Assembly: GCA_034359265.1 (NCBI GenBank)
Contig: CP136895.1
Span: 7,256,501-7,320,500 of the forward strand
Direction: 5' to 3'
DNA from: Canna indica
Taxonomy: Eukaryota; Streptophyta; Magnoliopsida; Zingiberales; Cannaceae
DNA: 64,000 nt
Of this stretch, positions 1 to 62,825 are shown piece after piece (position 1 is the stretch's first letter; every line of letters begins with the position of its first letter). A program made the translations under genes and the position numbers. Below the pieces are notes generated by a model. That model saw nothing but the letters and a program-made list of their open reading frames with translations, did not search any database and was not told where the DNA came from.

Positions 1-667
1 CAGATATTGATCCTTCAACAGCTGCGGTGTTCTTTACTTTTTTCTTCAGACGGTTCATGTATCTTTCAAATAAGTACATCCACCGATATTGAACGGGGCC
101 ACCAACTCGTGCCTCGTATGCCAAGTGTATCGGTAGATGCTCCATCGAGTCAAAAAATGCAGGAGGGAAAAACTGCTCCAGCTTGCATATGATTTCAATA
201 ATATTATTTTCAAGTGTTGACATATCTTCGACTCGAAGGACATTTGCACAGATGTTTCTAAAAAACATACTTAATTCAGTCAACGGACCCCAAATATTAT
301 CAGGTAGAAGATCTCGAAATGCGATCGAAAGTAATCTCTGCATGAATACATGACAATCATGGCTCTTCATCCCTGATATTTTGCAATCATCGACGTTCAC
401 ACATCGAGATAAGTTTGAAGCATATCCATCGGGTAATCTGAGTTCTTTTACCCATTGACAAACATCTTTGATCTGTTGTTTATTTAACACATATAGGGCC
501 TTCGGTTTCAGATATCGTCCGTTGACCTCTTGTAACTCCAATTCTGGTCTTTTGCAAAGTATTTTCATATCATGTCGGGTTTTGACATTATCTTTAGTTT
601 TTCCGGAAATATCCATCAAAGTGTTCAAAATATTATCAAACACATTTTTTTTCAATGTGCATGACAT
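1..667 (-). CDS. TNP2-type transposase, C-terminal part (second frame), partial
   Basis: This is the start of the downstream frame of the element 1 transposase, cut by the window edge. It begins at an ATG at 667 that overlaps the end of the upstream frame. The visible protein corresponds to the region after the DVMHIEK motif: a helical stretch and most of a DUF4218-like block (motif MKSHDCHVFMQRLL, then DNIWGPLTELSMFF and FERYMNRLKKKVKN). The sequence is effectively identical to 7044-7710 of element A. It is not an independent gene: it is the continuation of the transposase beyond an eight-A run carrying one extra base. A protein from the ATG alone would lack the catalytic part. Confidence 0.8.
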   Translation of the reverse strand, partial: MSCTLKKNVFDNILNTLMDISGKTKDNVKTRHDMKILCKRPELELQEVNGRYLKPKALYVLNKQQIKDVCQWVKELRLPDGYASNLSRCVNVDDCKISGMKSHDCHVFMQRLLSIAFRDLLPDNIWGPLTELSMFFRNICANVLRVEDMSTLENNIIEIICKLEQFFPPAFFDSMEHLPIHLAYEARVGGPVQYRWMYLFERYMNRLKKKVKNTAAVEGSIS

Positions 668-2408
668 CTAAATTATGTCGAATCAATAATGAACTCCAAT
701 AGGGCAATTCCCAAAAGATAATTTTTTTCACCCAGTTATGTGTTTGGCTAAAACCTGACACTCTTTCATTGCGACCAAATACTATATCTGGAAGTGCTGA
801 AACACGTGCTAACATTTGTTCACCAGACAACATCGGTGGTGGCCCATCTCTTTCGACTCTGCCCTTAGTAAATTTATTATGATTCCTTCGATACTGATGA
901 TTAACCGGTAGGAATCGACGATGACAATCAAAGAATGAGATTTTTCGTCCGTTCTGAAGACTGATTGATTTAGAGTGTTCCATACAATACGGACAAGAGA
1001 GTCGGTCGTGAGTGCTCCAACCCGACAACATGCCGTACGCCGGGAAATCATTGATTGTCCACAAGACCGCGGCCTTTAAATTGAAGTTTTGCTTCCGATG
1101 ACAATCATAAGTGACAGCTCCCTCAGTCCACAATGTTTTCAATTCATCTATCAAGGGTCTGAGAAATATGTCAATTTCTTTTCGCGGACCCTTAGGACCC
1201 GGAATAATCATCGAAAGATAAATAAATTCATCTTTCATGCACATTGACGGTGGCAAATTATAAACTGTCAGCAACACTGGCCAAACTGAATAAGGAGTTG
1301 CAGAATGTCCAAACGGATTATAACCATCTGTGCACAATCCCAATCTGATATTTCTAGTATCCCTAGCAAATGAAGGATAACATGTATCCAAATGTTTCCA
1401 TGCTTCACTGTCAGATGGATGAGTCATTACTGTATCATCACGACTTCTTGCATGCCAACTCATGTAGGGGGCTGTCTTTTCCGACATGAATAATCTTTGA
1501 AGTCTCGGTGTTAGTGGAAAATACCGAAGCACCTTAAACGGGATATTTTTTTGTCGGACCGATTTCTTCTCCTTGTAACGAGGATGTTGACATACAGGGC
1601 ATTTATCCAACTGCACATTTTCTTTATAATATAAAATGCAGTTATTTTGGCACGCGTGTATTTTTTCGTACCCAAGCCCCAATTTTCTCATTAGCTTTTT
1701 AGTCTTATAAAAAGTTGGCTCAAACTTGTTATCAGTAGGCAGCATTCCATTAATCAATCCAGCAATCCGATCATACGCAACTCCGCTGATATTACAATCG
1801 GCATTGATGTTTAAGAGTTGTGTCATTGCTGCAAACCTAGTGTATTTAGGATAATTCTTATACAAAGGTTCATCGGCAGCTTTCAACATCTCGTAAAATT
1901 CTGCAGCTTCTTTATTCGGTAATTCAATCTCTACCGCAGTTTGTACTTCTGTGATATCAACCGCTGTAGTATCTGGTGGGACTGATGTCTGAAGAACTGG
2001 CCGATCAACATTATCATTCAGGTGGAATTGACCCCCAAGACTATCAAGTATCATAGTTCTATAGGGATTACATTGATTGGATGAAGAAGCACCAGCAGAG
2101 GAAGATTCACCATATGTCTGAACGACAGGATTGCTCGATGTCCCGACTTCGCGTGACTCCCCGTGACAAGTCCATAGAAAATATCTTGGTGCAAATCCTT
2201 TGGTATATAGATGCAGAGTGACAGTCTCCCGATCCAAAAATCGTCCATTCGAACAAATGCGGCACGGACATCGGATTTGATCACTGATGCTAACGAAATT
2301 CCGGTTCGAATAGGCGAAATTTAGGAAGTACGTTATGCCTAATCGAAACTCATTCGTTAAAGCTCCACGATCAAGACGTCGGTACATCAAACTTCGATCA
2401 GTCGACAT
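636..2408 (-). CDS. TNP2-type CACTA transposase, N-terminal and catalytic part (first frame)
   Basis: This is the transposase of CACTA elements, a DDE-type nuclease that cuts the element ends. The frame opens at ATG 2408; an upstream in-frame TTG lengthens the open frame by seven codons but is not a likely start. Domains: a Transpos_assoc-like N-terminus (about residues 5-80, with paired cysteines CPCRIC), then the Transposase_21/Tnp2 core (about residues 320-590), which includes RLGLCTDGYNPFG, WPVLLTVYNLPP, PGPKGPRKEIDIFLRP, NDFPAYGMLSGWSTHDRLSCPYC and the end motif DVMHIEK. The frame then ends early because the A run at the motif has eight As where seven keep the frame. It is almost residue-for-residue the same as the element A copy (Leu for Trp a few residues after the start). 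Product is probably inactive unless the frame is recoded. Confidence 0.9.
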   Translation of the reverse strand: MSTDRSLMYRRLDRGALTNEFRLGITYFLNFAYSNRNFVSISDQIRCPCRICSNGRFLDRETVTLHLYTKGFAPRYFLWTCHGESREVGTSSNPVVQTYGESSSAGASSSNQCNPYRTMILDSLGGQFHLNDNVDRPVLQTSVPPDTTAVDITEVQTAVEIELPNKEAAEFYEMLKAADEPLYKNYPKYTRFAAMTQLLNINADCNISGVAYDRIAGLINGMLPTDNKFEPTFYKTKKLMRKLGLGYEKIHACQNNCILYYKENVQLDKCPVCQHPRYKEKKSVRQKNIPFKVLRYFPLTPRLQRLFMSEKTAPYMSWHARSRDDTVMTHPSDSEAWKHLDTCYPSFARDTRNIRLGLCTDGYNPFGHSATPYSVWPVLLTVYNLPPSMCMKDEFIYLSMIIPGPKGPRKEIDIFLRPLIDELKTLWTEGAVTYDCHRKQNFNLKAAVLWTINDFPAYGMLSGWSTHDRLSCPYCMEHSKSISLQNGRKISFFDCHRRFLPVNHQYRRNHNKFTKGRVERDGPPPMLSGEQMLARVSALPDIVFGRNERVSGFSQTHNWVKKIIFWELPYWSSLLIRHNLDVMHIEKKCV

Positions 2409-2482
2409 GATTCTGTCAATCAATGACAATTTCTTTGGTTAATGTCTTTAGGTGAGATTGTCCTATTCCATTCGGGGTTTAT

Positions 2483-2673
2483 GTTATTTATATTGCACTA
2501 AGTACTTATTTTAACCGTTAACTTCATTCTAAATTTCGGCAGCATCTCTCTACAGTTCTCCGAATACGCATATCATCTGGGCGCGTATCGGAGAACAAGA
2601 GAGATGTTGCCGAAATTTAAAATAATTAATTAGTTAACAGTTAAAAGAAAAATGTAAGTGCAGTACAAATAAC
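2483..2673 (-). other. Long hairpin upstream of transposase, element 1 copy
   Basis: This is a near-perfect inverted repeat, about 87 bases per arm, around a 13-base loop (GCCCAGATGATAT on the minus strand). It ends about 75 bases before the transposase ATG. In this copy the CATCTCTCT/AGAGAGATG stem segment is fully paired, whereas in element A the same position is a T-G wobble and in element C a C-G pair. The same structure occurs in elements A, C and D. Confidence 0.85.
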
Positions 2674-2874
2674 TATATTCCCAAATTGTCCAATCAGGGA
2701 CAATTCAAGAATTGTACGTCGTATAACAGATCATCTACTTCTTTTACACGAACATACAATCCCCGAACGGATCTAAGGTTTTGCTAAATCATATCCGACT
2801 CGTCGATGCGTACGTGAAACATATCAACTCGTCGGATGGATGATTATTTTCTAAATGTTTCGAGACAGTTCGAG

Positions 2875-2945
2875 TTCATATTGGACGATTCCGGCAGGAG
2901 TCCGAAGTGGACGATTCCGGCGCGCGTCCGAAGTGGATAATTCCG
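2875..2945 (-). repeat. 26 bp subterminal tandem repeats (about 3 units), element 1
   Basis: Three degenerate units of the family CGTCCACTTCGGACGCGCGC (first 20 bases of the unit, minus strand) stand where element A has nine. Subterminal repeats of this kind are typical binding sites of the CACTA accessory protein (TNPA in En/Spm); the assignment of function is by analogy. Confidence 0.85.
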
Positions 2946-3381
2946 AAATTAATCTAAACCCTAAAAATTAATCTAACAAATTAAACAATTAATCTAAATA
3001 ATTAATTAATAATTAATTAACAATTAAAAAATAATTAAAAAATAATATTAATCTACAAATTCCGGCGTCGGAGTCAGGTGGACTCCGGCGCCGGCGTACA
3101 GTGGCCGGATACATTGTCCGGCCAATGTACAAGGTCCGGCGGTGGCCATCGGCCGACCGCCGCCGGCCGAAACCCTATTTTTAGGGTTTTGGTCAGATTT
3201 TCCGCCGGCCGCAACGGGAAGAGACGGCCGGCCGGAGTTTACCTGACAGTGTCGGCAGCAGCGGGAAGAGGAAGAGGCATCGTCGGCGTCGGCAGCGGCG
3301 GTGAGAGGCAGGAGGAGGAGGCGGAGGCGGCGGCGGCAGCAGCGGGAGGAAGAAGGGTCGGGCGCGTTTTGTGACCTATAC

Positions 3382-3670
3382 AAACTTATCAGCAACGGCT
3401 CACTCGCCCGTTAGAAAGCCGTTGCTAATAAGTTATCATCAGCAACGGCTCACTTGTCCGTTAGCAAGCCGTTGCTAATAAGTTATCATTCGCAATGACT
3501 CACTTGTCTGTTAGAAAGCCGTTGCTGATAATTAACATCATCAGCAACGGCTCGCATGTCCGTTAGAAAGCCGTTGCAGATACAACATATCTGCAACGGC
3601 TCGAGCGGCCGTAAGAATGCCGTTGCAAATAGCAACGGCTTGAGCGGCCGTTGCTGATAGCCGTTGCTGA
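3382..3670 (-). repeat. Terminal palindrome array (AGCAACGGCT...AGCCGTTGCT), element 1
   Basis: About five imperfect palindromes of roughly 35-55 bp are built from CAGCAACGGCT and AGCCGTTGCTGAT halves that flank a variable centre. Each could extrude as a hairpin. The array lies just inside the CACTA terminus, as in elements A, B and C. Confidence 0.88.
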
Positions 3671-3690
3671 AGACCAAATTTCTAGTAGTG

Positions 3691-3907: not shown

Positions 3908-3930
3908 CACTACTAGAAATTGAGTCTTCA

Positions 3931-4212
3931 GCAACGGCTATCAGCAACGGCCGCTCAAGCCGTTGCTATTTGCAACGGCGTTCTTACGGCCGCTCGAGCC
4001 GTTGCAGATATTTGTATCTGCAATGGCGTTCTAATGGACACGCGAGCCATTGCGGATTATTTTAATTATCCGCAATGGCTTTCTGACGGAAAGGCGAGCC
4101 ATTGCTGATATTTTAATTATCAGCAATGGCTTTCTAACGGACAAGTGAGCCGTTGCTGATGATAAGTTATTAGCAACGGCTTTCTAATGAGCGAGTGAGC
4201 CGTTGCTGATAA
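3931..4212 (+). repeat. 5' terminal palindrome array, element A
   Basis: Successive palindromes are made from CAGCAACGGCT and AGCCGTTGCTGAT halves, with the centre and the spacer varying and some halves changed to AGCAATGGCT/AGCCATTGCT. In that variant both halves carry the change, which keeps the pairing. Confidence 0.9.
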
Positions 4213-4215
4213 GTT

Positions 4216-4222
4216 TATATAG
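4216..4222 (+). promoter_or_regulatory. TATA-like box of element A
   Basis: TATATAG lies immediately after the palindrome array and before a GC-rich, CT-rich leader of about 150 bp. The same box is at the same place in element C, but is degraded in elements 1 and B. It is the likely promoter of the transposase transcript, about 1.1 kb upstream of the ATG. Confidence 0.55.
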
Positions 4223-4613
4223 GGCACGCAGTCGCGCCCGACCCTTCTTCCTCCCGCTGCTGTCGCCGCCGTCTCCTGCTGCCGCCTGTCGCCGCCGCTA
4301 CCGACGCCGACGACGCCGATGATGCCTCTTTCTCCTCTCGCTGCTGCCGACATTTTCAAGTATGCCTCGCCGGCCGGCCGTCTCTTCCCGTTGCGGCCGG
4401 CGGGAAATCCGACCGATGGCCGCCGCCGGACCTTGTACAGTGGCCGGACAGTGTGTCCGGCCACTGTACGCCGGCGTCGGAGTCCACCTGACTCCGGCGA
4501 CAGAATTTATAGATTTATATATAATTTTCTATTGTTTTTAAATTTTTAATTAATTATTTAGATTAATTGTTTAATTTGTTAGATTAATTATTAGGGTTTA
4601 GATTAATTTCGGA

Positions 4614-4845
4614 ATTGTCCACTTCGGACGCGCGCCGGAATCGTCCACTTCGGACGAGCGCCGAAATCGTCCACTTCGGACGCGCGCCGGAATCGTCCAC
4701 TTTGGACGCGCGCCAGAATCGTCCACTTCGGACGCGCACGCGCCGGAATCGTCCACTTCGGACGCGCGCCAAAATCGTCAACTTCGGACGCGCACCGGAA
4801 TCGTCCACTTCGGACGCACGTCAAAATCGTCCAATATGGACTCGA
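4614..4845 (+). repeat. 26 bp subterminal tandem repeats (9 units), element A
   Basis: Eight units plus a partial ninth have consensus ATCGTCCACTTCGGACGCGC followed by GCCGGA. The fifth unit is 28 bp long through an extra GC-containing dinucleotide. Most differences between units fall at a few positions (for example CGGACG to TGGACG). The units are likely recognition sites for the element's DNA-binding protein. Confidence 0.92.
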
Positions 4846-5041
4846 ACTATCTCGAAACATTTAGAAAATAATCATGCATCCGACGAGTTCATATGTTTCA
4901 CGTACGCATCGACGAGTCGGATATGATTTAGCAAAACCTTAGATCCGTTCGGAGATTGTATGTTCGTGTAAAAGAAGTAGATGATCTGTTATACGATGTA
5001 CAATTCTTGAATTGTCCCTGATTGGACAATTTGGGAATATA

Positions 5042-5228
5042 GTTATTTGTACTGCACTTACGTTTTTATTTTAACTGTTAACTAATCATTCTAAATTTCG
5101 GCAACATCTCTCTTGTTCTTCGATACGCGCCCAGATGATATGCGTATTCGGAGAACTGTAGGGAGATGCTGCCGAAATTTAGAATGAAGTTAACGGTTAA
5201 AATAAGTACTTAGTGCAATATAAATAAC
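5042..5228 (+). other. Long hairpin upstream of transposase, element A copy
   Basis: The left arm 5042-5128 pairs with the right arm 5142-5228 around the loop 5129-5141 (GCCCAGATGATAT). Pairing is strong over about 55 bp nearest the loop (GTTAACT...TTCTAAATTTCGGC and its complement) and looser outside. It ends 75 bp before the transposase ATG and so should be in the transcript leader. It resembles a miRNA or siRNA precursor more than a simple terminal repeat. The DNA shows the fold potential; transcription and processing are inference. Confidence 0.87.
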
Positions 5229-5302
5229 ATAAATCCCGAATGGAATAGGACAATCTCACCTAAAGACATTAACCAAAGAAATTGTCATTGATTGACAGAA
5301 TC

Positions 5303-7075
5303 ATGTCGACTGATCGAAGTTGGATGTACCGACGTCTTGATCGTGGAGCTTTAACGAATGAGTTTCGATTAGGCATAACGTACTTCCTAAATTTCGCCTA
5401 TTCGAACCGGAATTTCGTTAGCATCAGTGATCAAATCCGATGTCCGTGCCGCATTTGTTCGAATGGACGATTTTTGGATCGGGAGACTGTCACTCTGCAT
5501 CTATATACCAAAGGATTTGCACCAAGATATTTTCTATGGACTTGTCACGGGGAGTCACGCGAAGTCGGGACATCGAGCAATCCTGTCGTTCAGACATATG
5601 GTGAATCTTCCTCTGCTGGTGCTTCTTCATCCAATCAATGTAATCCCTATAGAACTATGATACTTGATAGTCTTGGGGGTCAATTCCACCTGAATGATAA
5701 TGTTGATCGGCCAGTTCTTCAGACATCAGTCCCACCAGATACTACAGCGGTTGATATCACAGAAGTACAAACTGCGGTAGAGATTGAATTACCGAATAAA
5801 GAAGCTGCAGAATTTTACGAGATGTTGAAAGCTGCCGATGAACCTTTGTATAAGAATTATCCTAAATACACTAGGTTTGCAGCAATGACACAACTCTTAA
5901 ACATCAATGCCGATTGTAATATCAGCGGAGTTGCGTATGATCGGATTGCTGGATTGATTAATGGAATGCTGCCTACTGATAACAAGTTTGAGCCAACTTT
6001 TTATAAGACTAAAAAGCTAATGAGAAAATTGGGGCTTGGGTACGAAAAAATACACGCGTGCCAAAATAACTGCATTTTATATTATAAAGAAAATGTGCAG
6101 TTGGATAAATGCCCTGTATGTCAACATCCTCGTTACAAGGAGAAGAAATCGGTCCGACAAAAAAATATCCCGTTTAAGGTGCTTCGGTATTTTCCACTAA
6201 CACCGAGACTTCAAAGATTATTCATGTCGGAAAAGACAGCCCCCTACATGAGTTGGCATGCAAGAAGTCGTGATGATACAGTAATGACTCATCCATCTGA
6301 CAGTGAAGCATGGAAACATTTGGATACATGTTATCCTTCATTTGCTAGGGATACTAGAAATATCAGATTGGGATTGTGCACAGATGGTTATAATCCGTTT
6401 GGACATTCTGCAACTCCTTATTCAGTTTGGCCAGTGTTGCTGACAGTTTATAATTTGCCACCGTCAATGTGCATGAAAGATGAATTTATTTATCTTTCGA
6501 TGATTATTCCGGGTCCTAAGGGTCCGCGAAAAGAAATTGACATATTTCTCAGACCCTTGATAGATGAATTGAAAACATTGTGGACTGAGGGAGCTGTCAC
6601 TTATGATTGTCATCGGAAGCAAAACTTCAATTTAAAGGCCGCGGTCTTGTGGACAATCAATGATTTCCCGGCGTACGGCATGTTGTCGGGTTGGAGCACT
6701 CACGACCGACTCTCTTGTCCGTATTGTATGGAACACTCTAAATCAATCAGTCTTCAGAACGGACGAAAAATCTCATTCTTTGATTGTCATCGTCGATTCC
6801 TACCGGTTAATCATCAGTATCGAAGGAATCATAATAAATTTACTAAGGGCAGAGTCGAAAGAGATGGGCCACCACCGATGTTGTCTGGTGAACAAATGTT
6901 AGCACGTGTTTCAGCACTTCCAGATATAGTATTTGGTCGCAATGAAAGAGTGTCAGGTTTTAGCCAAACACATAACTGGGTGAAAAAAATTATCTTTTGG
7001 GAATTGCCCTATTGGAGTTCATTATTGATTCGACATAATTTAGATGTCATGCACATTGAAAAAAAATGTGTTTGA
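5303..7075 (+). CDS. TNP2-type CACTA transposase, N-terminal and catalytic part (first frame)
   Basis: The ATG at 5303 is chosen over an in-frame TTG 21 bases upstream. The 590-residue product has a Transpos_assoc-like N-terminus (about residues 5-80: MYRRLDRGALTNEF, CPCRICSNGRF), a linker rich in Ser and acidic residues, a zinc-ribbon-like CPVCQHPRYKEKKS at about 270-285 and the Transposase_21/Tnp2 core to the end. Candidate catalytic acids are in LCTDGYNPF and NDFPAYG. The protein stops at HIEKKCV because of an eight-A run (7059-7066); in the +1 frame the next residues would be those of the usual HIEKNV motif. The rest of the protein lies in the overlapping frame 7044-8789. It acts in the nucleus on the element ends if made. 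Confidence 0.92.
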   Translation: MSTDRSWMYRRLDRGALTNEFRLGITYFLNFAYSNRNFVSISDQIRCPCRICSNGRFLDRETVTLHLYTKGFAPRYFLWTCHGESREVGTSSNPVVQTYGESSSAGASSSNQCNPYRTMILDSLGGQFHLNDNVDRPVLQTSVPPDTTAVDITEVQTAVEIELPNKEAAEFYEMLKAADEPLYKNYPKYTRFAAMTQLLNINADCNISGVAYDRIAGLINGMLPTDNKFEPTFYKTKKLMRKLGLGYEKIHACQNNCILYYKENVQLDKCPVCQHPRYKEKKSVRQKNIPFKVLRYFPLTPRLQRLFMSEKTAPYMSWHARSRDDTVMTHPSDSEAWKHLDTCYPSFARDTRNIRLGLCTDGYNPFGHSATPYSVWPVLLTVYNLPPSMCMKDEFIYLSMIIPGPKGPRKEIDIFLRPLIDELKTLWTEGAVTYDCHRKQNFNLKAAVLWTINDFPAYGMLSGWSTHDRLSCPYCMEHSKSISLQNGRKISFFDCHRRFLPVNHQYRRNHNKFTKGRVERDGPPPMLSGEQMLARVSALPDIVFGRNERVSGFSQTHNWVKKIIFWELPYWSSLLIRHNLDVMHIEKKCV

Positions 7076-8789
7076 TAATATTTTGAACACTTTGATGGAT
7101 ATTTCCGGAAAAACTAAAGATAATGTCAAAACCCGACATGATATGAAAATACTTTGCAAAAGACCAGAATTGGAGTTACAAGAGGTCAACGGACGATATC
7201 TGAAACCGAAGGCCCTATATGTGTTAAATAAACAACAGATCAAAGATGTTTGTCAATGGGTAAAAGAACTCAGATTACCCGATGGATATGCTTCAAACTT
7301 ATCTCGATGTGTGAACGTCGATGATTGCAAAATATCAGGGATGAAGAGCCATGATTGTCATGTATTCATGCAGAGATTACTTTCGATCGCATTTCGAGAT
7401 CTTCTACCTGATAATATTTGGGGTCCGTTGACTGAATTAAGTATGTTTTTTAGAAACATCTGTGCAAATGTCCTTCGAGTCGAAGATATGTCAACACTTG
7501 AAAATAATATTATTGAAATCATATGCAAGCTGGAGCAGTTTTTCCCTCCTGCATTTTTTGACTCGATGGAGCATCTACCGATACACTTGGCATACGAGGC
7601 ACGAGTTGGTGGCCCCGTTCAATATCGGTGGATGTACTTATTTGAAAGATACATGAACCGTCTGAAGAAAAAAGTAAAGAACACCGCAGCTGTTGAAGGA
7701 TCAATATCTGAATCGTATATCATCCAAGAAATTTCAACATTCTGCTCATTTTACTTTGAATGGACAGTACAGACAAGATTTGATCGTCTTCCACGTAACG
7801 ACGATGGGGGTGTTCGACATTCAGATGGACGTTTAAATATATTTTGTCACTCTAGTCGTGCTTTTGGTTCTCGTCCATCTCGACACTTAAGCGATGAAGA
7901 GTATCATTTGGCACACTTGTATGTATTACTCAATTGTCCAGAGATTGAACAATTCATTGAAATATTTGACATTGAGATGGTGAAAAAATACTCTATTCAC
8001 AACGATGAAGAATTGGAGAGATTACGGAATCGTGATTTCCCTACTTGGATTCAGACTTACAGCAAAGATCACAGAGCTGAAATAGATGAAAGAATATTTG
8101 AGTTTGTTAGTGGACCGTCGCGACTTGTGTCGTGCTATAGCGGATATTTTGTTAACGGGTATAAATTTCAAACGGTTGAATATTCATTTTCAAAGAAGAC
8201 GATGAATGCTGGGGTTTGCGCGAAAGGGACAACCTATGTTGAATGTGATATGGATTTTTATGGACTGGTGGAAGAAGTGATAGAGTTGCACTACTTCGGC
8301 TTAAAATCAGTTATCCTATTTAGATGTCATTTGTTCGATACAACGGAAAGAGGCATGAAAGTTCATCCAAAATACAAACTTGTTGAGGTTAATTACAAAT
8401 CGAAATTCGCAGCAAATGGGCCTTTTATATTGGCATCACAAGCCGAACAAGTATATTACGCGAAGTATCCGGCTCGAAATCAAGATAGAGCAGATTGGCG
8501 TGTAGTCTGTAAGACAAAAGGTAGAGGAAAAATTGATCCGATAGTAGGAGAAAATGAGCTGATACCTGATATGACACATGGTTTCTATCAAGAAGATGAT
8601 CCTCCTGCTGTAGATCGTATTATTCCAATACTCGAGGATGCAGACACAACGTCAATTCAATTAGAAGTTGAATATGCTGATGATGACGATCATGAAATTG
8701 AGGAAGCTGGAGATGAAGAAGATGAAGAAGAGGAAGAAGAGGAAGAAGATGAAGAATTCGAAGACTATTATTCAGATGATGAGGAATAA
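7044..8789 (+). CDS. TNP2-type CACTA transposase, C-terminal part (second frame)
   Basis: This is the continuation of the transposase in the +1 frame. The in-frame ATG at 7044 sits inside the overlap and gives MSCTLKKN, which is not conserved; the homology starts at NVFDN (about 7065). Domains: a DUF4218-like block (about residues 75-230, MKSHDCHVFMQRLLS, FFPPAFFDSMEHLPIHL), a DUF4216-like block (about 375-480, SGYFVNGYKFQT, VHPKYKLVEVNYKSKFA, ILASQAEQVYYAKYP) and a very acidic tail ending YYSDDEE. Together with the first frame it would make a protein of about 1160 residues, a normal size for the family. There is no other stop, so this part has stayed open despite the frame break. Confidence 0.88.
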   Translation: MSCTLKKNVFDNILNTLMDISGKTKDNVKTRHDMKILCKRPELELQEVNGRYLKPKALYVLNKQQIKDVCQWVKELRLPDGYASNLSRCVNVDDCKISGMKSHDCHVFMQRLLSIAFRDLLPDNIWGPLTELSMFFRNICANVLRVEDMSTLENNIIEIICKLEQFFPPAFFDSMEHLPIHLAYEARVGGPVQYRWMYLFERYMNRLKKKVKNTAAVEGSISESYIIQEISTFCSFYFEWTVQTRFDRLPRNDDGGVRHSDGRLNIFCHSSRAFGSRPSRHLSDEEYHLAHLYVLLNCPEIEQFIEIFDIEMVKKYSIHNDEELERLRNRDFPTWIQTYSKDHRAEIDERIFEFVSGPSRLVSCYSGYFVNGYKFQTVEYSFSKKTMNAGVCAKGTTYVECDMDFYGLVEEVIELHYFGLKSVILFRCHLFDTTERGMKVHPKYKLVEVNYKSKFAANGPFILASQAEQVYYAKYPARNQDRADWRVVCKTKGRGKIDPIVGENELIPDMTHGFYQEDDPPAVDRIIPILEDADTTSIQLEVEYADDDDHEIEEAGDEEDEEEEEEEEDEEFEDYYSDDEE

Positions 8790-8864
8790 TTGTAAAGTAT
8801 ATATTTTATTAAATATATCTCTACTATTTATACAATAATCTGATTATATGTCTGTTCCACAGAT

Positions 8865-10396
8865 ATGTCTGGTCGTGGTTATCGATGCAGGAGAGCTTCG
8901 GAGTCTCCGATCGGTGAGACTCCAGCACTTACTCATGCTGTTGATCCTCCTGTTGCTGATCCTCATGCGGATGATACTGCCGAGGCTAGTACATCCAGAC
9001 GTAGGCGGCCACGCGGGCCGAACAGGTGGCAGCCTCCACCAGCCACAGAGTCACGTAGATTGATTAGCGTGATTGGGGAGCGGTAATATATCATGAATTA
9101 TGAATCATTACAAATTCATTATATCATAAATATAATATTAAAATTTATTTTTGTTGTGCAGGTTCGAGCAAGAAGAAGTGCCGAGGAGCATTTCTTCTAC
9201 TATTCGACGATACATGCACGGGGCATGGCCTACGTGGTCTCACATGCCTAGCTAGCACGTTGACATGTTATGGCGCGAGTTTGAGGCACGTATTATTATT
9301 TTTTTTACATGCATGATGATTAATATTGGTACTGATATTATTATTTTGCAGGCTCGCTATACATGGGCCGAGGACCAAAGGCCCTTCATTTACGCTGCCT
9401 AGGAGGCTATTTCCCGGGCAAGGTACAACGGGCAGCCTGCCCGGTCCCAAGCGATGGCCCGAGCTGGGACCACTAACATCGCGGAGACTCGGGGATACGG
9501 CCCCGGTTGGATTACTCTGGATATATGGGACCAGCTCGTGGGAATATGGTCGACGGATCGATGGCAGGAGGTTTCTTGGAATGCGGTTAGAAATCGCATA
9601 TCGGGGGAAGCGGCGCGTCACACCGGCGGCTCTGTTGCATTTGTAGTGCACGCGAACCGTATGGTAAGTATATTTTTTGATTATATATTTTATTTGTTAC
9701 TATGTGTACTAATTAATGTATTTGTTTTGTAAATGTAGACGACGGTGTCGGATGACGGGACTGTCCAGCGACCCTCCCCGATGGCGGTGTTTGAGCGGAC
9801 TCACCGTCGAGCACATGGGACGGGGGAGTACATCGACAACCGCGCTGCATACATTATGGTAATTATATATTTGTTTAAATTATTCATTATATATTTATAA
9901 TTTAAAATTTATGATAAATATTAAACAAAAAATCAAACTCGAGTAGGAGACCTACAGCCAGACGGTGGTGCAGCGCGGGGGTACCCCCGAGGACTTTGAC
10001 GCAGCATCGTGGGTCGAGGCCGCAGGTGGCTGGGACCATGGCCGCGTATATGGCTTCGCAGATAGTGGTCATGCGCGAGCCGTACTAGGGCCACTTGGGG
10101 CACCGACCCCTCCGGTCGCTGGTGAGCGGCCGTCCACCTCTAGATCCAGTTATGATCATAGTAGCAGAATAAGGACTCTAGATGACACGGTCACGCGTCA
10201 GACTGAGATAATGGAGCGTCAGAGTCAGATGATGACGGATATACAAGCTATGCTACGCAACATGTCAGGTCATCCCGAAGCAGGCATCTCTTCGGCATCA
10301 TCTAATCCATCGTCCGCGAGTCAGTCCACGCCGGTGTACACTCAAGCACTCCAGACCCCGCCATATGATCCAGACCATCCTCCATCGTCATCGTGA
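8865..10396 (+). pseudogene. TNPA-like second CACTA gene (Transposase_24 type), five exons, two in-frame stops
   Basis: Exons inferred from splice sites and from copies B and D: 8865-9082, 9162-9285, 9352-9663, 9739-9858 and 9947-10396, which join to 408 codons with all phases consistent. The protein starts MSGRGYRCRRA, has a central block ARYTWAEDQR, IWDQLVGIWSTDRWQEVS and ARHTGGSVAF, then RVYGF and a C-terminal coiled-coil-like stretch (IRTLDDTVTRQTEIMERQSQ). This layout matches the plant Ptta/En/Spm accessory protein family that binds subterminal repeats. Two TAG codons interrupt it, at 9253-9255 and at 9400-9402; at the second, copy B encodes Trp. The second intron has a GC donor. As it stands it would give only a fragment. 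Confidence 0.8.
9286..9351 (+). other. Predicted GC-AG intron in the TNPA-like gene
   Basis: The exon ends GAG and the intron begins GCACGTATT and ends TTTTGCAG. Only a break at this point joins FE to ARYTW in frame. Copy B has the same GC donor; the divergent copy D has GTACGTAG at the same position, so the GC form arose in the A/B lineage or was lost in D. Confidence 0.65.
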
Positions 10397-10671
10397 GATT
10401 TTGTTTATATTGACTTTGTTACTGAGATATTGAACTTGTTTAACTTATTTTGTTTGGATATTGATACTTTAATTTTGTATTTGAATTATTTTTATACTAT
10501 CGTGGATAATTATCAATATAAATATAATTGTTTTGATGTATATCTTGGTGTGTTTGTGATGTGTGAATGAATGTGTGTATGAGTGTATGGGTGTGTGAGT
10601 TATGTATCAGATAATGTATCAATGTATCAATGGAAATTTTAAATTTTAAATTTTTTCGTTACCAGGTTCAC
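10397..10671 (+). other. 3' non-coding region of element A
   Basis: This AT-rich stretch between the second gene's stop and the 3' palindrome array contains TGTGTG/TGTATG-rich simple sequence near 10540-10620. I see no gene in it. Confidence 0.6.
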
Positions 10672-10985
10672 ATCATCAGCAACGGCTTTCCCACGGCCGT
10701 CCGTGGGAAAGCCGTTGCTGATGACCTACAGCAACGGCTTAGCGACGGGCTTTTACTAACGGCGCTGCTACGGACTCAGCGGCCGTTGCTATTAATGTTA
10801 TCAGCAACGGCTCCGAGTCCGTGGCAAAACCGTTGCTGATAATATTTTTAGCAACGGCCCGAGCGGTCGTTGCTGATCCGTTGCTAAGTTATCAGCAACG
10901 CGAATTTCTGTCACGGCTCTATTGCAACGGCTCGGCCGTTGCTGATGCTCTTCAGCAACGGCTGATGCCGTTGCTGATGCCCATT
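10672..10985 (+). repeat. 3' terminal palindrome array, element A
   Basis: Repeated AGCAACGG/CCGTTGCT palindromes lead to the 3' terminus. They share the half-site with the 5' array but have different centres (for example CCCACGGCCGTCCGTGGG). Confidence 0.88.
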
Positions 10986-11000
10986 TTTCTAGTAGTGTTA

Positions 11001-14886: not shown

Positions 14887-15595
14887 GAAATGCATATTTG
14901 GTCCTATAAATTTTCAATTTTTTGGACTTTGATCCTATAAATTTTATTTTGATATTTTCAGTCTTATAAATTTGCTCCGTAGCATAGATTTAATCTTATC
15001 CGTGACGGCCCGTTAAATCTCCGTGAATGTGGACTAACGTTATTCATACACGTTGACAGATTTGATCCTATAAATTTCATTTCGAAATTTTCAGCTCTAT
15101 ATGCTTTATGTGTAGCACATATTTGATCCTATATATTTGTCATATATCACATATTTGGTCCTATCCGCGACGATCCATTAACTCTCCGTCCATAAAAAAA
15201 TAAACAACGTTATGTCCATGTTGACGGAGTTAACAGATCGTCGTGGATATGACCAAATTTGGTCATATCCACGACGGTATGTTAACTCCGTCAACATGGA
15301 CATAACGTTGTTTATTTTTTCATGAACGAAGAGTTAACGAATCATCACGGATATAATCAAATTTGTGCTACGAGACAAACATATAAGATTAAAAATTTCG
15401 AAATAAAACTTATAGGACCAAATATGTCAACATGTATGAACGACGTTAGTCCACATTGAGGGAGAGTTAACGAACTGTCACGGATATGACCAAATTTGTA
15501 CTATAGAGCAAACTTCTAGGACTGAAAATATCTAAATAAATTTTATGAACTAAAATCCAAAAAATTAAAAACTTATAGGACCAAATTTGCACTTC
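14887..15595. mobile_element. Foldback (long inverted-repeat) element, about 0.7 kb
   Basis: The two halves are reverse complements around a centre at about 15256 (GACCAAATTTGGTC). Outer ends read GAAATGCATATTTGGTCC on the left and, on the opposite strand, GAAGTGCAAATTTGGTCC on the right. The inner arms (GACGGAGTTAAC, CATAACGTTGTTTATTTTT) are almost perfect. There is no open frame and no clear target duplication. It is a MITE-like element whose transcript would fold into one hairpin of about 350 bp. Confidence 0.8.
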
Positions 15596-29221: not shown

Positions 29222-30405
29222 ATGGATCTCCCCGTGGTAATCGGCCTCCTCTCGGCGGCCCTCCTCTTACACGTTGCTCTCGCTTCCTTCGCCTACATGA
29301 TCAGGTTGTTCCGCAGGCACAAGATACCCTTCGCCTGCGTCCACGATGACCCGGAGCTCGGCCTGGTCGCCAAACCGCAGCCCGACGCGCCACGCCAGTT
29401 CGGGTGGGCGGAGGTCGAGTCGCTCACCGGAAACTTCGCCCCCTCCGCCGTGATCGGGGAAGGCGGCTTCAGCACCGTCTACCTCGCCCGCCTCCCCCCC
29501 GACGCCGTCCCCGTCGCCCTCAAACTCCACCGCTCCAGCGAGCGCCTTCACCGCGCCTTCCGCCAGGAGCTCGACGTCCTCCTCCGCCTCCGCCACCCCC
29601 ACATTGTTCCCCTCCTCGGCTACTGCGACGACCGCGGTACGTCTTTCCTCCCCCGCCGCCGCGAAATCAGTCTCTCTCTGCTCCCTCCCTAACTGTTTGT
29701 GCTTTTGTTTCCTCGAATGAAATTGCAGAAGAAGGGGTTCTGGTGTTTGAGTTCGTGCCGAACGGGAGCCTCCACGAGAAGCTCCACGGCGACAGCTCGT
29801 CGGTGCTGCCGTGGGCCCGGCGGATGGCCATCGCGTACCAGCTCGCGCAGGCCCTAGACTACCTCCACGACGGGTGCAACGTCCAAATCGTGCACGGCGA
29901 CGTCAAGGCGTCGAACGTCCTCCTCGACGGCCGGCTCGAGCCGAAGCTGTGCGACTTCGGATCCGCCCGAGTGGGCTTCTCCGCCGCCGTCCTCCCGCGG
30001 GCCGTGCACCCGATGCTCGGGTCACCCGGCTACATCGACCCGCACTACCTCCGGACGGGGATGGTCACCAAGAAGAGCGACGTCTACAGCTTCGGGGTGC
30101 TGCTCCTGGAGCTAATCACCGGAACGGAGGCCTTCGACTCGGCGGCGGAGCGGATGCTGACGGCCGCGGTGGGGCCGGCGTTACGAGATCCGGAAAACAA
30201 TGCTGGGGAGCTGGTGGATCGTAGACTGGCCGGGGAGTACGACGCAGCAGAGGCGGCTGCGGCGGCGTCGATGGCGGCTGCGTGCATTGGAGCGAATCCC
30301 AGTCTCCGGCCCTCCACGGCTGAGTTGGTGCGAGGCATGGCCGAGAAGGTGTCATCTTCGATCGCTACCGTCGGTGCGACATCAGACGACAAAAGAGATG
30401 TATGA
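29222..30405 (+). CDS. Membrane-anchored receptor-like protein kinase, non-RD (At1g33260-like)
   Basis: Two exons, 29222-29636 and 29729-30405, joined through a GTACGT...TTGCAG intron of 92 bp (phase 1), encode 363 residues. The ATG at 29222 is used because the five codons before it begin with TTG. A hydrophobic segment at residues 4-28 with RLFRRHK after it makes an N-terminal membrane anchor, with no real ectodomain. Kinase landmarks: glycine loop [10 protein letters not shown] (78-87), Lys101 in VALK, catalytic loop HGDVKASN (194-201) with Gly in place of the usual Arg before Asp196, DFG at 214-216, GSPGYIDP (236-243). All catalytic residues are present, so activity is expected. The non-RD loop means regulation is probably not by activation-loop phosphorylation. 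Resemblance to the Arabidopsis At1g33260-type RLCKs is from memory of the family; substrate is unknown. Exons are strikingly GC-rich. Confidence 0.92.
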
Positions 30406-40097: not shown

Positions 40098-40119
40098 AGT
40101 CACTATTGGAATAACAAGC

Positions 40120-40562: not shown

Positions 40563-40849
40563 GATGTTAACTTGTAACTGAAAAGTTTTAAATTTTCTAA
40601 TTTCCATTAATACATTGATACATTTAACCTGATACATAACTCACACACTCATACATACATCCATTCACATACACATCATAAATACACCCAGATATACATC
40701 AAAACAATTATACTTATATTTATAATTATCCACAATCATATAAAAACTATTCAAATTTAAAACTATCGTAACAATATCCAAACAAAACAAGTCAATCAAG
40801 TAGTATCCAAATAACAAAGTCAATATCCAAACAAAATAATAAACCTTAC

Positions 40850-42956: not shown

Positions 42957-43015
42957 TAGATTATATATATAGTAGAGATAGATTTAATAGAAGATATACT
43001 TTACAATTATTCCTC

Positions 43016-43145: not shown

Positions 43146-43197
43146 ATTGGAACTCGTCAGATGGATGATTATTTTCTAAATATTTTGATGCCGGTTC

Positions 43198-48974: not shown

Positions 48975-49142
48975 TATGATTCACGAGTTGATAAAATGAC
49001 ACGGACTTATCGACCGTTGGATCATAATTTTTTTTACAATACCTTAGATCTGTTCGGAGATCGTATCGTTGTCTATAAGAAGTACAAAACTTATAGATTC
49101 TTTACGATTTTTGAATTGTTCTTGATCGAATAATTTGAGATC

Positions 49143-49332
49143 AAAATTATTTTAATTGCAGTTAAATATTTTTTTAATATTCATTTCAGTTTGAAATTCT
49201 AGTAGATATCCATTGTTCTCCAAGTATGCGCCCAGATAATATGCATACTTGGAGAACTGTATGAAAATACTGCCGGAATTTCAACTGAAATTGAATGTTA
49301 AAAAAAATATTTAAATGCAAGTAGAATAATTT
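49143..49332 (+). other. Long hairpin upstream of transposase, divergent element D copy
   Basis: Arms 49143-49229 and 49243-49332 surround the loop 49230-49242 (GCCCAGATAATAT, 12 of 13 bases as in element A). The stem sequence differs greatly from A but still pairs: the 14 bp next to the loop (TTCTCCAAGTATGC and its complement) are perfect. The C-G pair of element A's TACGC/GCGTA is here T-A (TATGC/GCATA). Confidence 0.85.
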
Positions 49333-49366
49333 GATTCCCGAATGGAATAGGACCACCCCACCTATG

Positions 49367-49629
49367 TGTCAGCCCAAGAAGATTACAGAAGAAAGAAAAT
49401 CTTATAATAACAAGTTGTAATTGAAGAAACAGATGATGATCTTTCTCATTACTTCAAAGAAATCTAGTACATCATTTTATATGTAAAAGAAGCTACCAGT
49501 TTACAACCATATATGGTTGGGAACGTTTTCAATGAAACTAAGTAACAGATACAACTTCATATAAAGAATTCTATTTATATGCAGGATCTCTGAGCTTCTG
49601 TGAAGAATATGAGTCACTAATTCTTAACA
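49367..49629 (-). repeat. 3' LTR of the Ty1/copia element
   Basis: 263 bp, TG...CA ends; differs from the 5' LTR at two sites (T/C and G/T on the plus strand). The polypurine tract abuts it at 49630. Confidence 0.96.
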
Positions 49630-49642
49630 CCCCCTCCTTGAC

Positions 49643-52600
49643 TCATATTTTCATAACACCCAGCTTATATCTAAAGTTTTGAAATGAGTCAACAGACAAT
49701 GGTTTTGTAAATATGTCAGCGATCTGATCCTTACTCCTACAGAAAAGCAATTCAACCTTTTTCTCTGTTACAAGTTCCCGTATAAAATGAAGCCTTGTAT
49801 CTATGTGCCTTGACTTAGAATGGAACACAGGATTCCTTGTCATAGCCAGGGCAGATTGATTGTCACATAAGATTTATGTTGGATCTTTACACTTGTATCC
49901 CAAATCAGCTAAGATTCTTCTCAACCATACTGCCTGACAAGCTGCAGTAGTCAAAGCTACATACTCAGCTTCAGCAGTAGACAATGCGGTAGATGCCTGC
50001 TTCTTTGACCCCCAGCTGATTGACCCTGTTCCACAATTGAAAACAAAGCCAGAAGTGCTCCTTCGATCATCTATAGATCCTGCCCAGTCTGAATCAGAGT
50101 AACCAAACAGTTCAAAAGAAATATTTTTCTGATAAACCAAGCCATAATCCAAAGTACCCTTGATATATCTTAGGATCCTTTTTGCAGCCATCAAATGTTG
50201 AGTTCTAGGCTTGTGCATGAACCTTGAAAGCATGTTTACAGGAAATACTAAGTCAGGCCTTGAGTGAGTTAAATACATGAGACATCCAATAATACTTCTG
50301 TATTGACATGCATCAATAACTTCACCTTCTGATAAGCCAAGCTTAGTTCCCAAACTCATAGGTGTTAGCACAGGTTTACAATCACTCATTCCAAATCTAA
50401 GCAATAAATCCTTGGCATACTTGGATTGAGATATGCTTACCCAGGTTTCATGATGAGTGATTTCGAGACCAAGGAAATAGCTCAACTCCCCTAGGTCAGT
50501 CATCTCAAATTCCATGAATAACTTTTCCTTAAAAACAGCCATGACTTCTTTGTTGTTACCTGCAAGTATCAGGTCATCCACATACAAGCAAATCACCAAA
50601 CTATGTTGATCATCATGACGAGTATAAAGAGTATGATCATGAACACTGCGTATCAATCCACATGATACAAAATAACTATCTATCTTTGAGTACCAGGCCC
50701 TTGGAGCCTGCTTTAGGCCATACAATGCCTTTTTCAACAAGTAGACTTTGCCTTCTTCTTTGATAAAACCCTCCGGCTGCTGAACATAAACCTCCTCTCT
50801 CAATTCCCCATTAAGAAATGCAGATTTAACATCTAACTGTGACAATACCCAGTGTTTATATACAGCATAAGCAATTACTGTTCTGATAGTGTCGATTCTA
50901 GCAACTGGAGCAAAAGTCTCTAGGTAATCAACCCCTTCCTGCTGCATAAACCCTCTTGCAACAAGTCTTGCCTTGTACTTGCAGACAGACCCATCAGAGT
51001 TATACTTGATTTTAAAAATCCACTTCAAATCAACAGCTTGTTTATCTTCCGGCAAATCCACAAGCTCCCAAGTACCATGTTTTTCAATAGAATCAAACTC
51101 CTCCTTCATGACTTGTTTCCATTTCAGATTACTGACAGCTTCTTGGTAATTCAAAGGTTCACTGATCTGAGCTGAGTTACATTCCTGGGTTTGAGCATAG
51201 ATTTCCTGCAAGCTCCTCAACTTCCGAGGTGGAGAATTTTCACTAGAGCTGCTTGAGGTTAGTTGTTCTTCAAAGCTTCCTACATCATCTTCATTCATGG
51301 TGTCAATATCAGAATTAGACACCTCAGGTCCAGATACTGACTCAGAGTTACTTGTTTCAGGACACAAGTTTTTATCATTAGTGCTGGTTTTCAATTTCCA
51401 ATCCCAACACTTGTTTTCATCAATCTTTACATCTCTGCTGATTACAATTCTCATTGTAACAGGATTGAATAGTCTATATGCTTTAGACTCTTGACTGTAG
51501 CCAACAAGAACACAACATACAGAATTGTCATCCAATTTCTTCCTAATTTGATTAGGAATTAAAGAATATGCTATACTACCAAATACCCTGAAATGAGCAA
51601 CTTGAGGTTTGCGTTTAAACAGAGCTTCAAAAGGAGTTTTATCTCCAACTGCAGAAGAGAAGCACCTGTTCAACAAATATACTGCAGTTTGAGCAGCTTC
51701 AGCCCACAAAAATTTGGGTAATTGTTTATCTTTCAGCATGCACTTCACCATTTCAACAATAACTCGATTTTTCCTCTCAGCCACGCCATTTTGCTGAGGA
51801 GAATAGGCTGTGGTGAGTTGTCTTTTGATACCATTTATACTACAGAAATCTTCAAACATGTGTGAAGTGAATTCCCCTCCCCTATCAGTACGAAGACACT
51901 TGACAGACTTGCCTAATTCTTTTTCACATTTGACTTTGAATTCTTTGAACTTGTCAAAGGCTTCATTTTTGTTTTTGATAAAGGCAATCCAGGAAAATCT
52001 ACTATAGTCATCAATGAAAAGAATGTAGTACTGATTACCACTGTAGGAAGGCTCCTGAAATGGTCCGCAAAGATCTGAATGTATCAACTCTAGTGGTTCA
52101 GTAGCTCGAAATTCAGCTTTCTTTGGAAAAGAGGATCTGCTCATCTTTCCTAGAACACAGCTCTCACAGGTGTAGCCGAGGGTTCCCTTAATATGATCAA
52201 GGCCAATTACCATGGATTTATCTTTTAATCTCTTTATATAATCCAAATTGACATGACCATATCTACAATGCCATAATTTTTCAGTGTCACTGATTTCTGC
52301 CTTGAGAGCACAACTTACTTCATGAGGATTAAAAGAAAACAAATTGTTTTCGGCAACCTTAACTTTTATCAATTCAGAAGTTCTAGTGTTATCAGTGTAA
52401 ACAACACAATTATTACCTTCAAAAACCAAAGTGAAGCCTTCCTTCATTAGTTGACCAACGCTCAGTAAACTTGAATCAAGATCAGGAACAAAGAGGACAT
52501 TTTTTATGGTCTTCTTTTGCTGTTCATCAACACAGATGTCACCTCGTCCAAGTGCTTTTCTGATGTTGCCATCACCGAACTTGACATTTGCTGTATGAGT

Positions 52601-53611
52601 CTTGTCTAATCTCAAGAACCAGTCTTCCTGTGCTGTCATGTGGTTGCTGCAACCACTATCAAGATACCAATTTGATTTTGACTTTTTGTTTTCTTGGATG
52701 CTTGCCATTAAGATGACTTCATCCTCCTTCTTTTCTTCCGCAAGATTGGCCTGATTCATATGACGGGCTTTCAAACGGCAAAACCTTTCAATGTGTCCGA
52801 ATTTTTTACAATAAAAGCATTGAATTTTCCTTTTATTTGCTGATCGAGAGTTCCCAGCTTGAGCTTTCTGATTATTTTGATCATCTTCATCATCAGTGGA
52901 ATCTTCAGCAACAGCATTTCCTCTGGAACTTGACTCAGACTTGAAATAATGCTTCTGCCTTTTGCTATCTTCTTTGTGACTGGTTTTCAAAGCCTGTTCA
53001 ACTCTTCTTTCTTCATGGCGCTTCATCCTCTCAAAATGTGAAAGAAGAGAACCAAGCAGCTCGTCAGAGGACATCTCCTCAATATCGTTCCCTTCCTCGA
53101 TTGTAGCTACTATATGGTCGAATTTTTCAGGCATACTGCGAAGGATTTTCTCAACAATTCGCAGTTCAGTCACATCTTCTCCATAACGCTTCATCTGGTT
53201 CGCCATTTCCATGACAAGAGCATAATATCCATTGATGTCTTCGTCTTCTTTCATAAAAAGACTCTCAAACTGACGCCTCAAAGTCTGACGCTTCACTTTT
53301 TGCACCTTGGTGGTGCCTTGGTAAGTAGTTTTGAGAATACACCAAGCATCATTAGCTGTTTCAGCAGAGGAAATGCGTTTGAATACCTTGGTGTCGACGG
53401 CCTGTTGAATATGGCTTAGAGCCTTTGCGTCTTTCTTTCGAGTTTCACGAAGAGCGCCAGCAGTCAGTCCTTCCTCCGAGTAACCAATACTCACTAGCTC
53501 CCAGAGATCTTGAGAGATGAAGAAGGTGCGCATCATGATGCTCCAATCTCCAAACTCTACACCATCAAATCTTGGGACGGATGGATTCACCTGATTTGCT
53601 GCTGAGGCCAT
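49643..53611 (-). CDS. Ty1/copia gag-pol polyprotein with one in-frame stop
   Basis: The frame starts at ATG 53611 (MASAANQ) and runs 1245 codons to a TAA at 49876-49874, then continues in the same frame for 76 codons to 49643. Order: UBN2-type gag (FGDWSIMMRTFF), zinc knuckle CFYCKKFGHIERFC (about 263-276), protease motif DSGCSNHM (about 315), integrase zinc-binding part (WHCRYGHVN...CESC, about 447-490) and catalytic part with DLCGPF, DDYSRFSWI and DRGGEFTS, reverse transcriptase (QLDVKSAFLNGEL, YVDDLILAG at about 1010) and RNase H (GYSDSDWAGSIDDRRSTSGF, LSTAEAEYVAL). The stop falls just before the RNase H CDNQSAL motif, so translation would lose the C-terminus. Everything else is intact. 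Length is usual for copia. Confidence 0.95.
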
Positions 53612-53627
53612 CGGAAACAATCTCCTT

Positions 53628-53639
53628 GCTCTGATACCA
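53628..53639 (-). other. Primer binding site of the Ty1/copia element
   Basis: TGGTATCAGAGC on the minus strand is complementary to the 3' end of plant initiator tRNA-Met. Confidence 0.93.
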
Positions 53640-53641
53640 AA

Positions 53642-53904
53642 TGTCAGCCCAAGAAGATTACAGAAGAAAGAAAATCTTACAATAACAAGTTGTAATTGAA
53701 GAAACAGATGATGATCTTTCTCATTACTTCAAAGAAATCTAGTACATCATTTTATATGTAAAAGAAGCTACCAGTTTACAACCATATATGGTTGGGAACG
53801 TTTTCAATGAAACTAAGTAACATATACAACTTCATATAAAGAATTCTATTTATATGCAGGATCTCTGAGCTTCTGTGAAGAATATGAGTCACTAATTCTT
53901 AACA
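53642..53904 (-). repeat. 5' LTR of the Ty1/copia element
   Basis: 263 bp partner of the LTR at 49367-49629; it carries the promoter for the minus-strand transcript. Confidence 0.96.
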
Positions 53905-62368: not shown

Positions 62369-62561
62369 GTCTCGAAACATTTAGAAAATAATCATCCATC
62401 CGACGAGTTGATATGTTTCACGTACGCATCGACGAATCGGATATGATTTAGCAAAACCTTAGATCCGTTCGGGGATTGTATGTTCGTGTAAAAGAAGTAG
62501 ATGATCTTTTATACGACGTACAATTCTTGAATTGTCCCTGATTGGACAATTTGGGAATATA

Positions 62562-62751
62562 GTTATTTGTACTGCACTTACGTTTTTATTTTAACTGTTA
62601 ACTAATTATTCTAAAATTCGACAACATCTCCCTTGTTCTCCGATACGCGCCCAGATGATATGCGTATTCGGAGAACTGTAGGGAGATGCTGTCGAAATTT
62701 AGAATAATTAGTTAACAGTTAAAATAAAAACGTAAGTGCAGTACGAATAAC
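62562..62751 (+). other. Long hairpin upstream of transposase, element C copy
   Basis: Arms 62562-62648 and 62662-62751 around the loop 62649-62661 (GCCCAGATGATAT). It is the most complete pairing of all copies: the outer part (GTACTGCACTTACGTTTTTA) also matches its partner exactly, unlike in element A. CGGC/GCCG of A is CGAC/GTCG here, a compensated G-C to A-T change. Confidence 0.88.
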
Positions 62752-62825
62752 ATAAATCCCGAATGGAATAGGACAATCTCACCTAAAGACATTAACCAAA
62801 GAAATTGTCATTGATTGACAGAATC

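Follow-up and report, generated by a model that had tools for sequence, protein, structure and literature searches.

The transposase genes of four CACTA elements in the 64-kb stretch of DNA analysed here (the window) are preceded by one shared, predicted branched fold, and the coupled changes seen between the paired strands of its stems suggest that this branched shape matters. The initial annotation had described a long hairpin just upstream of TNP2 in elements 1, A, C and D; these hairpins are real, and each is one arm of a larger structure. When the approximately 415 nt upstream of TNP2 were folded separately for each copy, RNA folding gave a single multibranch common to 1, A, C and D, in which a helix, P1 (CCTTAGATCYGTTCGG paired with CCCGAATGGAATAGG), closes three hairpins, HP1, HP2 and HP3, with a further hairpin, HP0, located directly upstream of P1. 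HP3 is the hairpin reported before; HP0, HP1, HP2 and P1 were absent from that account.

Element A can be delimited as a whole (3908..10997, plus strand): it ends in CACTACTAGAA and TTCTAGTAGTG and is flanked by the target-site duplication TTA. The terminal inverted repeats and 3-bp duplication that define CACTA elements were thus found for A, and element E carries ACT on both sides; for D, neither CACTA ends nor a target-site duplication was found within the window, and the far ends of elements 1 and C lie beyond its edges. Elements 1 (1-3690) and A are arranged head to head, with 217 bases between them. The TNP2 gene of A (5303..8789, plus strand) encodes the domains Transpos_assoc, Transposase_21, DUF4218 and DUF4216, the TNP2 transposase family PF02992 being recognized in this element with an E value of 1.9e-85. 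Two overlapping frames, meeting near 7060, make up this gene; in both A and 1 the split falls at a run of eight A residues (7044-7075 in A) and may reflect a mutation, an error of assembly or slippage. A protein search with the piece 5303-7072 returned 2700 matches, the best of which, among the matches listed, shows 54% identity (Hevea), while the same piece met six pattern-matching stretches and no relative in viral contigs. The second ORF of A is presumably TNPA, as its position and a resemblance to TNPA would indicate. In D, DUF4218 is present and the coding sequence aligns to TNP2 of A, and a Copia retrotransposon (49367..53904, minus strand, duplication CTATG) is inserted between the D module and the start of its TNP2. 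Element E (~40101-44100, minus strand, CACTATT ends, duplication ACT) is a deletion derivative in which the leader is joined to the TNP2 C-terminus, without the module and most of TNP2. Since E lacks the module and is nevertheless flanked by ACT, a module-less derivative may have moved, and the module is perhaps dispensable in cis for movement. G+C-rich palindromes stand in the leaders of A (4430-4500), C (61930-62030) and E (43560-43620) as well, and on visual inspection their two arms seem to vary in concert. A protein-kinase ORF at 29350-30405 is probably a host gene or a fragment of one.

In element A the whole module spans 4938..5249 on the plus strand, with boundaries drawn from the sequence by separate folding and by a four-row alignment, hereafter A4. 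The 5′ and 3′ strands of P1 occupy ~4938-4953 and 5235-5249, and they enclose HP1 (~4955-5003), HP2 (~5004-5036) and HP3 (~5042-5228, or 5028..5242 with its extended base), all on the plus strand; HP0 lies at 4870..4929, just 5′ of P1. The counterparts are found at 2462..2777 on the minus strand in element 1 (HP3, 2483-2673), at 62458..62772 on the plus strand in C, the best-paired copy (HP3, 62562-62751), and at 49043..49351 on the plus strand in D, the diverged one (HP3, 49143-49332). The module is ~310-316 nt long and its 3′ end is placed ~50 nt before the TNP2 ATG and a putative 3′ splice site. For C, the segment 62457-62776 has an MFE of −181.4. Stability is not confined to the long hairpin: with HP3 removed, none of 300 shuffles was as stable as the remaining module in any copy (z −6.0 in A, −8.2 in 1, −8.3 in C and −3.9 in D), HP0 being weaker (z −2.1, −4.1, −2.5 and −4.5 in A, 1, C and D). 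One fold ran contrary to this picture, namely a 403-nt cut of A (4900-5302) that kept HP2 and HP3 but lost P1 and HP1; C and 1 retained both helices in the same alternative-cut folding. The junction may be able to rearrange, as TCCCGAAT is predicted to pair either with the P1 5′ strand or with the HP3 base, and the basal strands of HP3 likewise have two predicted options, mutual pairing or pairing to strands of P1 and HP2. A profile search of the window with nhmmer gave eight hits, corresponding to the four modules and four HP3 self-complements, and no fifth copy. The core TAYGCGCCCAGATRATATGCRTA occurred 0 times in viral contigs and 0 times in prokaryote genome contigs, a result that speaks for those two groups only.

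The four hairpins of the initial annotation were recovered where they had been placed, with the qualification that the one in element 1 is encoded on the minus strand and is not independent of that of A. RNA folding of A 5028-5242 and D 49131-49346 gave −109.1 kcal/mol (z −16.2) and −84.4 kcal/mol (z −13.7), respectively, with 0 of 200 shuffles equally stable in either case; this shuffle test covered A and D, and for 1 and C the fold alone was computed. Once the extended base is included, the arms of HP3 reach ~100 bases. Elements 1, A and C share the loop GCCCAGATGATAT, and D has GCCCAGATAATAT in its place, in agreement with the earlier description, although the loop pattern by itself is not rare among shuffles when three mismatches are allowed. 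D and the other copies also have in common an asymmetric bulge in which TTG faces CTGTA (A4, by eye). The compensated changes singled out before can be located in A4. The replacement of TACGC/GCGTA by TATGC/GCATA in D is seen at pair 195-213, which turns from C-G to U-A, and the position described as T-A, T-G or C-G is pair 179-231, with U-A in element 1, U-G in A and C-G in C. The change of CGGC/GCCG to CGAC/GTCG in C likewise corresponds to a G-C to A-U replacement at pair 169-241, but the same pair is A-C, and unpaired, in D. The statement that the D stem has diverged strongly and still pairs is borne out by the shared fold and its compensations, and needs to be tempered, since numerous pairs are broken midway along HP3 in this copy. 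Pair decay also affects the basal stem of HP3 in A and 1: a comparison of C with A finds 41 of 41 positions identical on the basal 5′ arm and 33 of 40 on the 3′ arm. The apical stem, by comparison, has no broken cell over its 15 pairs, two of which are compensated, and C and D agree at 37 of 43 apical positions.

The relationships among the copies determine how these changes may be counted. Elements 1 and A are inverted copies of each other, 100% complementary over 2632 bases (1-2632 in element 1 and 5079-7710 in A), the whole 3′ arm included; they are therefore not independent, and the data amount to two lineages, {1, A, C} and D. The edge of this identity lies inside the 5′ arm of HP3, with ~94% identity beyond it, and the pair looks like the product of a recent duplication or of a conversion with its edge in the hairpin. 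A and C share 97.4% of coding positions, 95.1% of the module and 84.6% of the leader that precedes it, while A and D share 68.3% of module positions (278/407) and 64.5% of the compared TNP2 stretch (752/1166). Upstream of position 4927, no A-D match over 80 bases was found at an E value of 1e-8.

Covariation was assessed on four sequences from two lineages and one window, too few for R-scape, by imposing a structure derived from C alone on an alignment made from sequence only, in which 147 pairs have letters in D. On this structure, 88 pairs are unchanged in D, 10 one-sided changes keep pairing and 19 break it, whereas 23 two-sided changes are kept and 7 are broken. The 23 kept double changes compare with 8.6 expected, and none of 20000 permutations came as high as 23 when the 3′ letters of D were shuffled among pairs of the same type, a scheme that does not preserve relatedness. 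HP3 alone contributes 14 kept double changes (4.9 expected), and HP0, P1, HP1 and HP2 together contribute 9 (3.8 expected, p 0.0011). The excess does not depend on the choice of C: the structure of D gives 25 against 6.0 when applied to C, and those of 1 and A give 18 against 7.5 and 18 against 7.8 when applied to D. In A4, with its four rows and 132 pairs, 20 pairs show two-sided changes versus 7.6 expected (0 of 500 shuffles), and this number falls to 0 to 5 if the partner is slid by 1 to 3 columns. P1 behaves differently in being nearly invariant, with 12 of 14 pairs constant in A4, so that its support is conservation and complementarity without covariation. Within these two lineages, the data support the earlier proposal that selection keeps the fold, and they extend it beyond HP3.

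Should the sense TNP2 RNA be the molecule that counts, G-U pairs would be tolerated and A-C mismatches would not. The ratio of G-U to A-C is 15:3 in A, 16:4 in 1, 13:3 in C and 16:3 in D, or 29:8 for distinct column states; by helix, it is 3:2 in HP0, 4:0 in P1, 4:0 in HP1, 5:0 in HP2 and 13:6 in HP3. The selection of the small helices by RNA folding, which itself favors G-U, inflates this lean. HP3, originally recognized as a DNA repeat, stands at 13:6 with p 0.17, or 11:6 with p 0.33 after two alignment slips are merged. Control palindromes elsewhere in the window gave 11:10, 7:19, 4:11 (overlapping the previous one), 0:4, 3:0 and 2:2, so the measure can lean either way. A strand bias linked to transcription was considered as a cause of the G-U excess and set aside, as the polarized transitions in TNP2 show no matching lean (8 versus 10, small numbers). 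The sense strand has the lower MFE in all four modules; among three control stretches the two strands gave −333/−393, −65/−78 and −270/−266, and two of these three also differ clearly. The antisense of P1+HP1+HP2 is likewise more stable than every one of the 300 shuffles for A, 1 and C, at a smaller folding energy than the sense strand; for D it is matched by 36 of 300. We regard these observations as suggestive only of a sense RNA as the acting molecule. The window also contains a nested palindrome at 14909-15574 with arms of 224 and 139 nt, whose outer arm shows A-C 19 times versus G-U 7 times on the plus strand and whose minus strand folds better by 60 kcal/mol, and an inverted repeat at 33771-34269 with 235-nt arms that are 83% complementary.

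Candidate splice sites surround the module. In A, a TATA-like stretch at ~4214-4222 is followed downstream by a CT-rich stretch (both by eye), and the top donor, scored like all sites with splice-site weights, is a putative 5′ splice site at 4360..4361 on the plus strand (CAA/GTATGC, the slash marking the junction; score 6.4). At the matching place, element 1 has a putative donor at 3242 (minus strand, CAG/GTAAAC, 7.9) and element E one at 43681 (minus strand, CAG/GTAACT, 8.9), each the top donor of its copy. This agreement has exceptions: a rival donor in A, within HP1, scores 6.3; C has no donor at the matching place, its top donor (7.8) being inside HP3 at 62732; and no exon 1 was found for D. 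On the acceptor side, a putative 3′ splice site of A at 5297..5298 (plus strand, ...GACAG/AATCATG) stands ahead of the TNP2 ATG. Its counterpart in D (...TACAG/AATTATG) is found past the Copia insertion and is preceded by different letters, and ACAG/AATYATG is present ahead of TNP2 in 1, A, C and D. For A and 1 this site ranks only 5th among the listed acceptors, and for C only 4th; it is thus a putative acceptor, backed by common letters and place and not by its score. A further putative 3′ splice site of A precedes the second ORF (8861..8862, plus strand, ...CACAG/ATATG), and its counterpart before the second ORF of E reads ...GACAG/ATATG, ACAG/ATATG being common to both. These sites are suggestive only of a leader intron that would hold the module between a short non-coding exon 1 and the TNP2 exon.

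As the best of the readings considered, though one that we would not yet bet on, we tentatively propose that the module is a cis-acting pre-mRNA fold in the leader intron that sets the splicing of TNP2 versus TNPA. HP3 would be the longest arm of a branched domain in the sense CACTA transcript, and the module would sit in the leader intron, ~50 nt short of the TNP2 3′ splice site. Being beside the TNP2 acceptor, the fold could act in cis on the pre-mRNA and would set the share of exon 1 that is joined to TNP2 as opposed to skipping to the TNPA exons, a division that would parallel the alternative splicing of tnpD and tnpA in maize Spm. What the sequences show is the common predicted fold and the coupled changes between two lineages; it is the effect of the fold on splicing that we infer, and our confidence in this reading is reduced because the TNP2 acceptors are not top-ranked and the strand ratio of HP3 alone is not significant. 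A bolder version, in which a conserved branched RNA switch in plant CACTA transposase pre-mRNA uses a two-fold junction to set the TNP2:TNPA ratio, perhaps by sensing TNPA, is in our estimation a long shot.

The same module could instead operate in translation, as the initial annotation had also suggested: in an unspliced leader, the fold might block scanning or guide ribosomes, by shunting or internal entry, to the TNP2 ATG. Its end ~50 nt ahead of that ATG would suit such a role, and in 1, A and C a 12-codon uORF and a 2-codon uORF nested in it terminate 6 nt ahead of the first P1 pair, a spacing similar to that in RTBV and RTSV, where 7 and 8 nt separate the uORF stop from the stem (PMC5902531); control of a bacterial transposase by a 5′ UTR fold is also on record (PMC8450116). 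However, with the transcript start assumed by eye, the unspliced leaders of A, C and 1 contain 16, 14 and 13 ATGs ahead of TNP2, and the putative splice sites would excise the module altogether, which together make an intronic place more likely than translation control. Ribosome shunting, for which a short 5′-proximal uORF ending near the stem is characteristic, is not favored, since the uORF is missing in D and is not the first in 1, A and C, where earlier upstream ATGs follow the assumed start. We consider translation control possible but unlikely. An unlikely alternative of comparable standing is that the element keeps a DNA palindrome, acting as a cruciform, a nested foldback or a protein-binding site, with arms held alike by strand switching or arm conversion. 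Palindromic subterminal repeats able to form stem-loops are described for soybean CACTA elements (PMC2613891, PMC4219821), the window holds further palindromes, and the G-U lean of HP3 taken alone is compatible with chance. In A, the 3′ basal arm has drifted while the 5′ arm has stayed unrepaired; these one-arm changes make an arm-conversion palindrome mildly disfavored. D moreover shares the asymmetric bulge and a conserved loop, the coupled changes extend beyond HP3, and the subterminal motif AGCAACGG is absent from all four modules. G-U also exceeds A-C overall, but this bias comes mostly from helices chosen by RNA folding, and the cruciform put forward earlier is for that reason only mildly disfavored.

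HP3 could also serve as a source of small RNAs, cut by Dicer-like enzymes into siRNAs or a miRNA directed against the element itself or a host gene, and we judge this somewhat unlikely. It is long and nearly perfect, and it has the foldback expected of a plant miRNA precursor (<300 nt, few mismatches). Precedents exist in rice miR820, located in CACTA elements and with OsDRM2 as its target (PMC3459959), and in miRNA-like structures of maize transposable elements, CACTA included, which correlate with small RNAs and methylation (PMC10760457). Rfam offered plant miRNA matches below threshold, among them MIR2630 at 84.6 bits in C and 32.8 in D against a gathering score of 144, and no family reached its gathering score in the 64-kb window. 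These scores shift with the stretch supplied (84.6 and then 43.3 bits for C), the MIR2630 match is on the minus strand in C and on the plus strand in D, and in four inspected alignments, the 84.6-bit one not among them, the pairing is alike more than the letters. MIR2630, MIR530 and the other weak hits were accordingly judged to be generic long-hairpin matches. A conserved miRNA is expected to keep its 21-mer and lose its loop, but the best-conserved stem of HP3 varies by compensation and keeps no 21-mer, whereas its loop is conserved; P1, HP1 and HP2, in addition, would be superfluous for a small-RNA source. Within the window, the best targets of HP3 from A, C and D have 2-4 mismatches compared with 3-4 in six shuffles per copy, and the 2-mismatch sites, at 3009 (C) and 13341 (D), are one mismatch better than the shuffles and composed of A+T only or nearly so, which leaves nothing convincing. 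The compensation, the kept loop, the multibranch and the outcome of the Rfam and target searches weaken the earlier suggestion of a miRNA: a conserved miRNA is less likely, while diced siRNAs from HP3 as a by-product are quite possible.

If the cis-acting splicing fold is real, a selected structure at the transposase acceptor would provide a direct and mutable handle on how autonomous CACTA elements balance a scarce transposase transcript against TNPA, and a DNA transposon would carry a selected RNA structure that goes beyond silencing-attracting hairpins.

Among the matches listed in a search of open-licence titles and abstract openings, none describes a branched RNA conserved in the leader of CACTA elements, which is weak evidence of absence; what is already known are CACTA stem-loops in the form of subterminal repeats (PMC2613891, PMC4219821). 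In soybean, Tgm1, Tgmt* and TgmR* resemble the present elements in having inverted motifs able to form stem-loops, and these are described in the excerpts considered as short repeats near the element ends. The module, by contrast, is a single domain ~1 kb inside the element that adjoins TNP2, shows coupled changes and is without the subterminal motif. Rice miR820 provides another example of a hairpin within a CACTA element; its precursor resembles OsDRM2 and, according to the parts of PMC3459959 drawn on here, is known only from rice, whereas HP3 is common to copies at 64.5% coding identity and has a conserved loop within a branched fold. The shunt leaders of Caulimoviridae are likewise long and have a big stem-loop with a short uORF just before it, as in 1, A and C, but the uORF found here is neither 5′-proximal nor present in D, and the module is probably intronic. 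In maize, Spm produces tnpA to tnpD from one unit by alternative splicing (PMC1636069, PMC8195511). Element A has the same layout as En/Spm, with a TNP2-type gene, a second gene behind it in the same orientation, a single promoter-like region, a putative common exon 1 and putative acceptors before each ATG, and it differs by the branched RNA domain ahead of the tnpD-like gene, which is not mentioned in the portions of the En/Spm literature considered. RNA motifs at plant splice sites (PMC12218528) are, in the sections of that paper considered, mostly hairpins in host genes, and its main text contains 'transpos' and 'CACTA' 0 times; the module would share with these motifs a conserved fold beside alternative splice sites.
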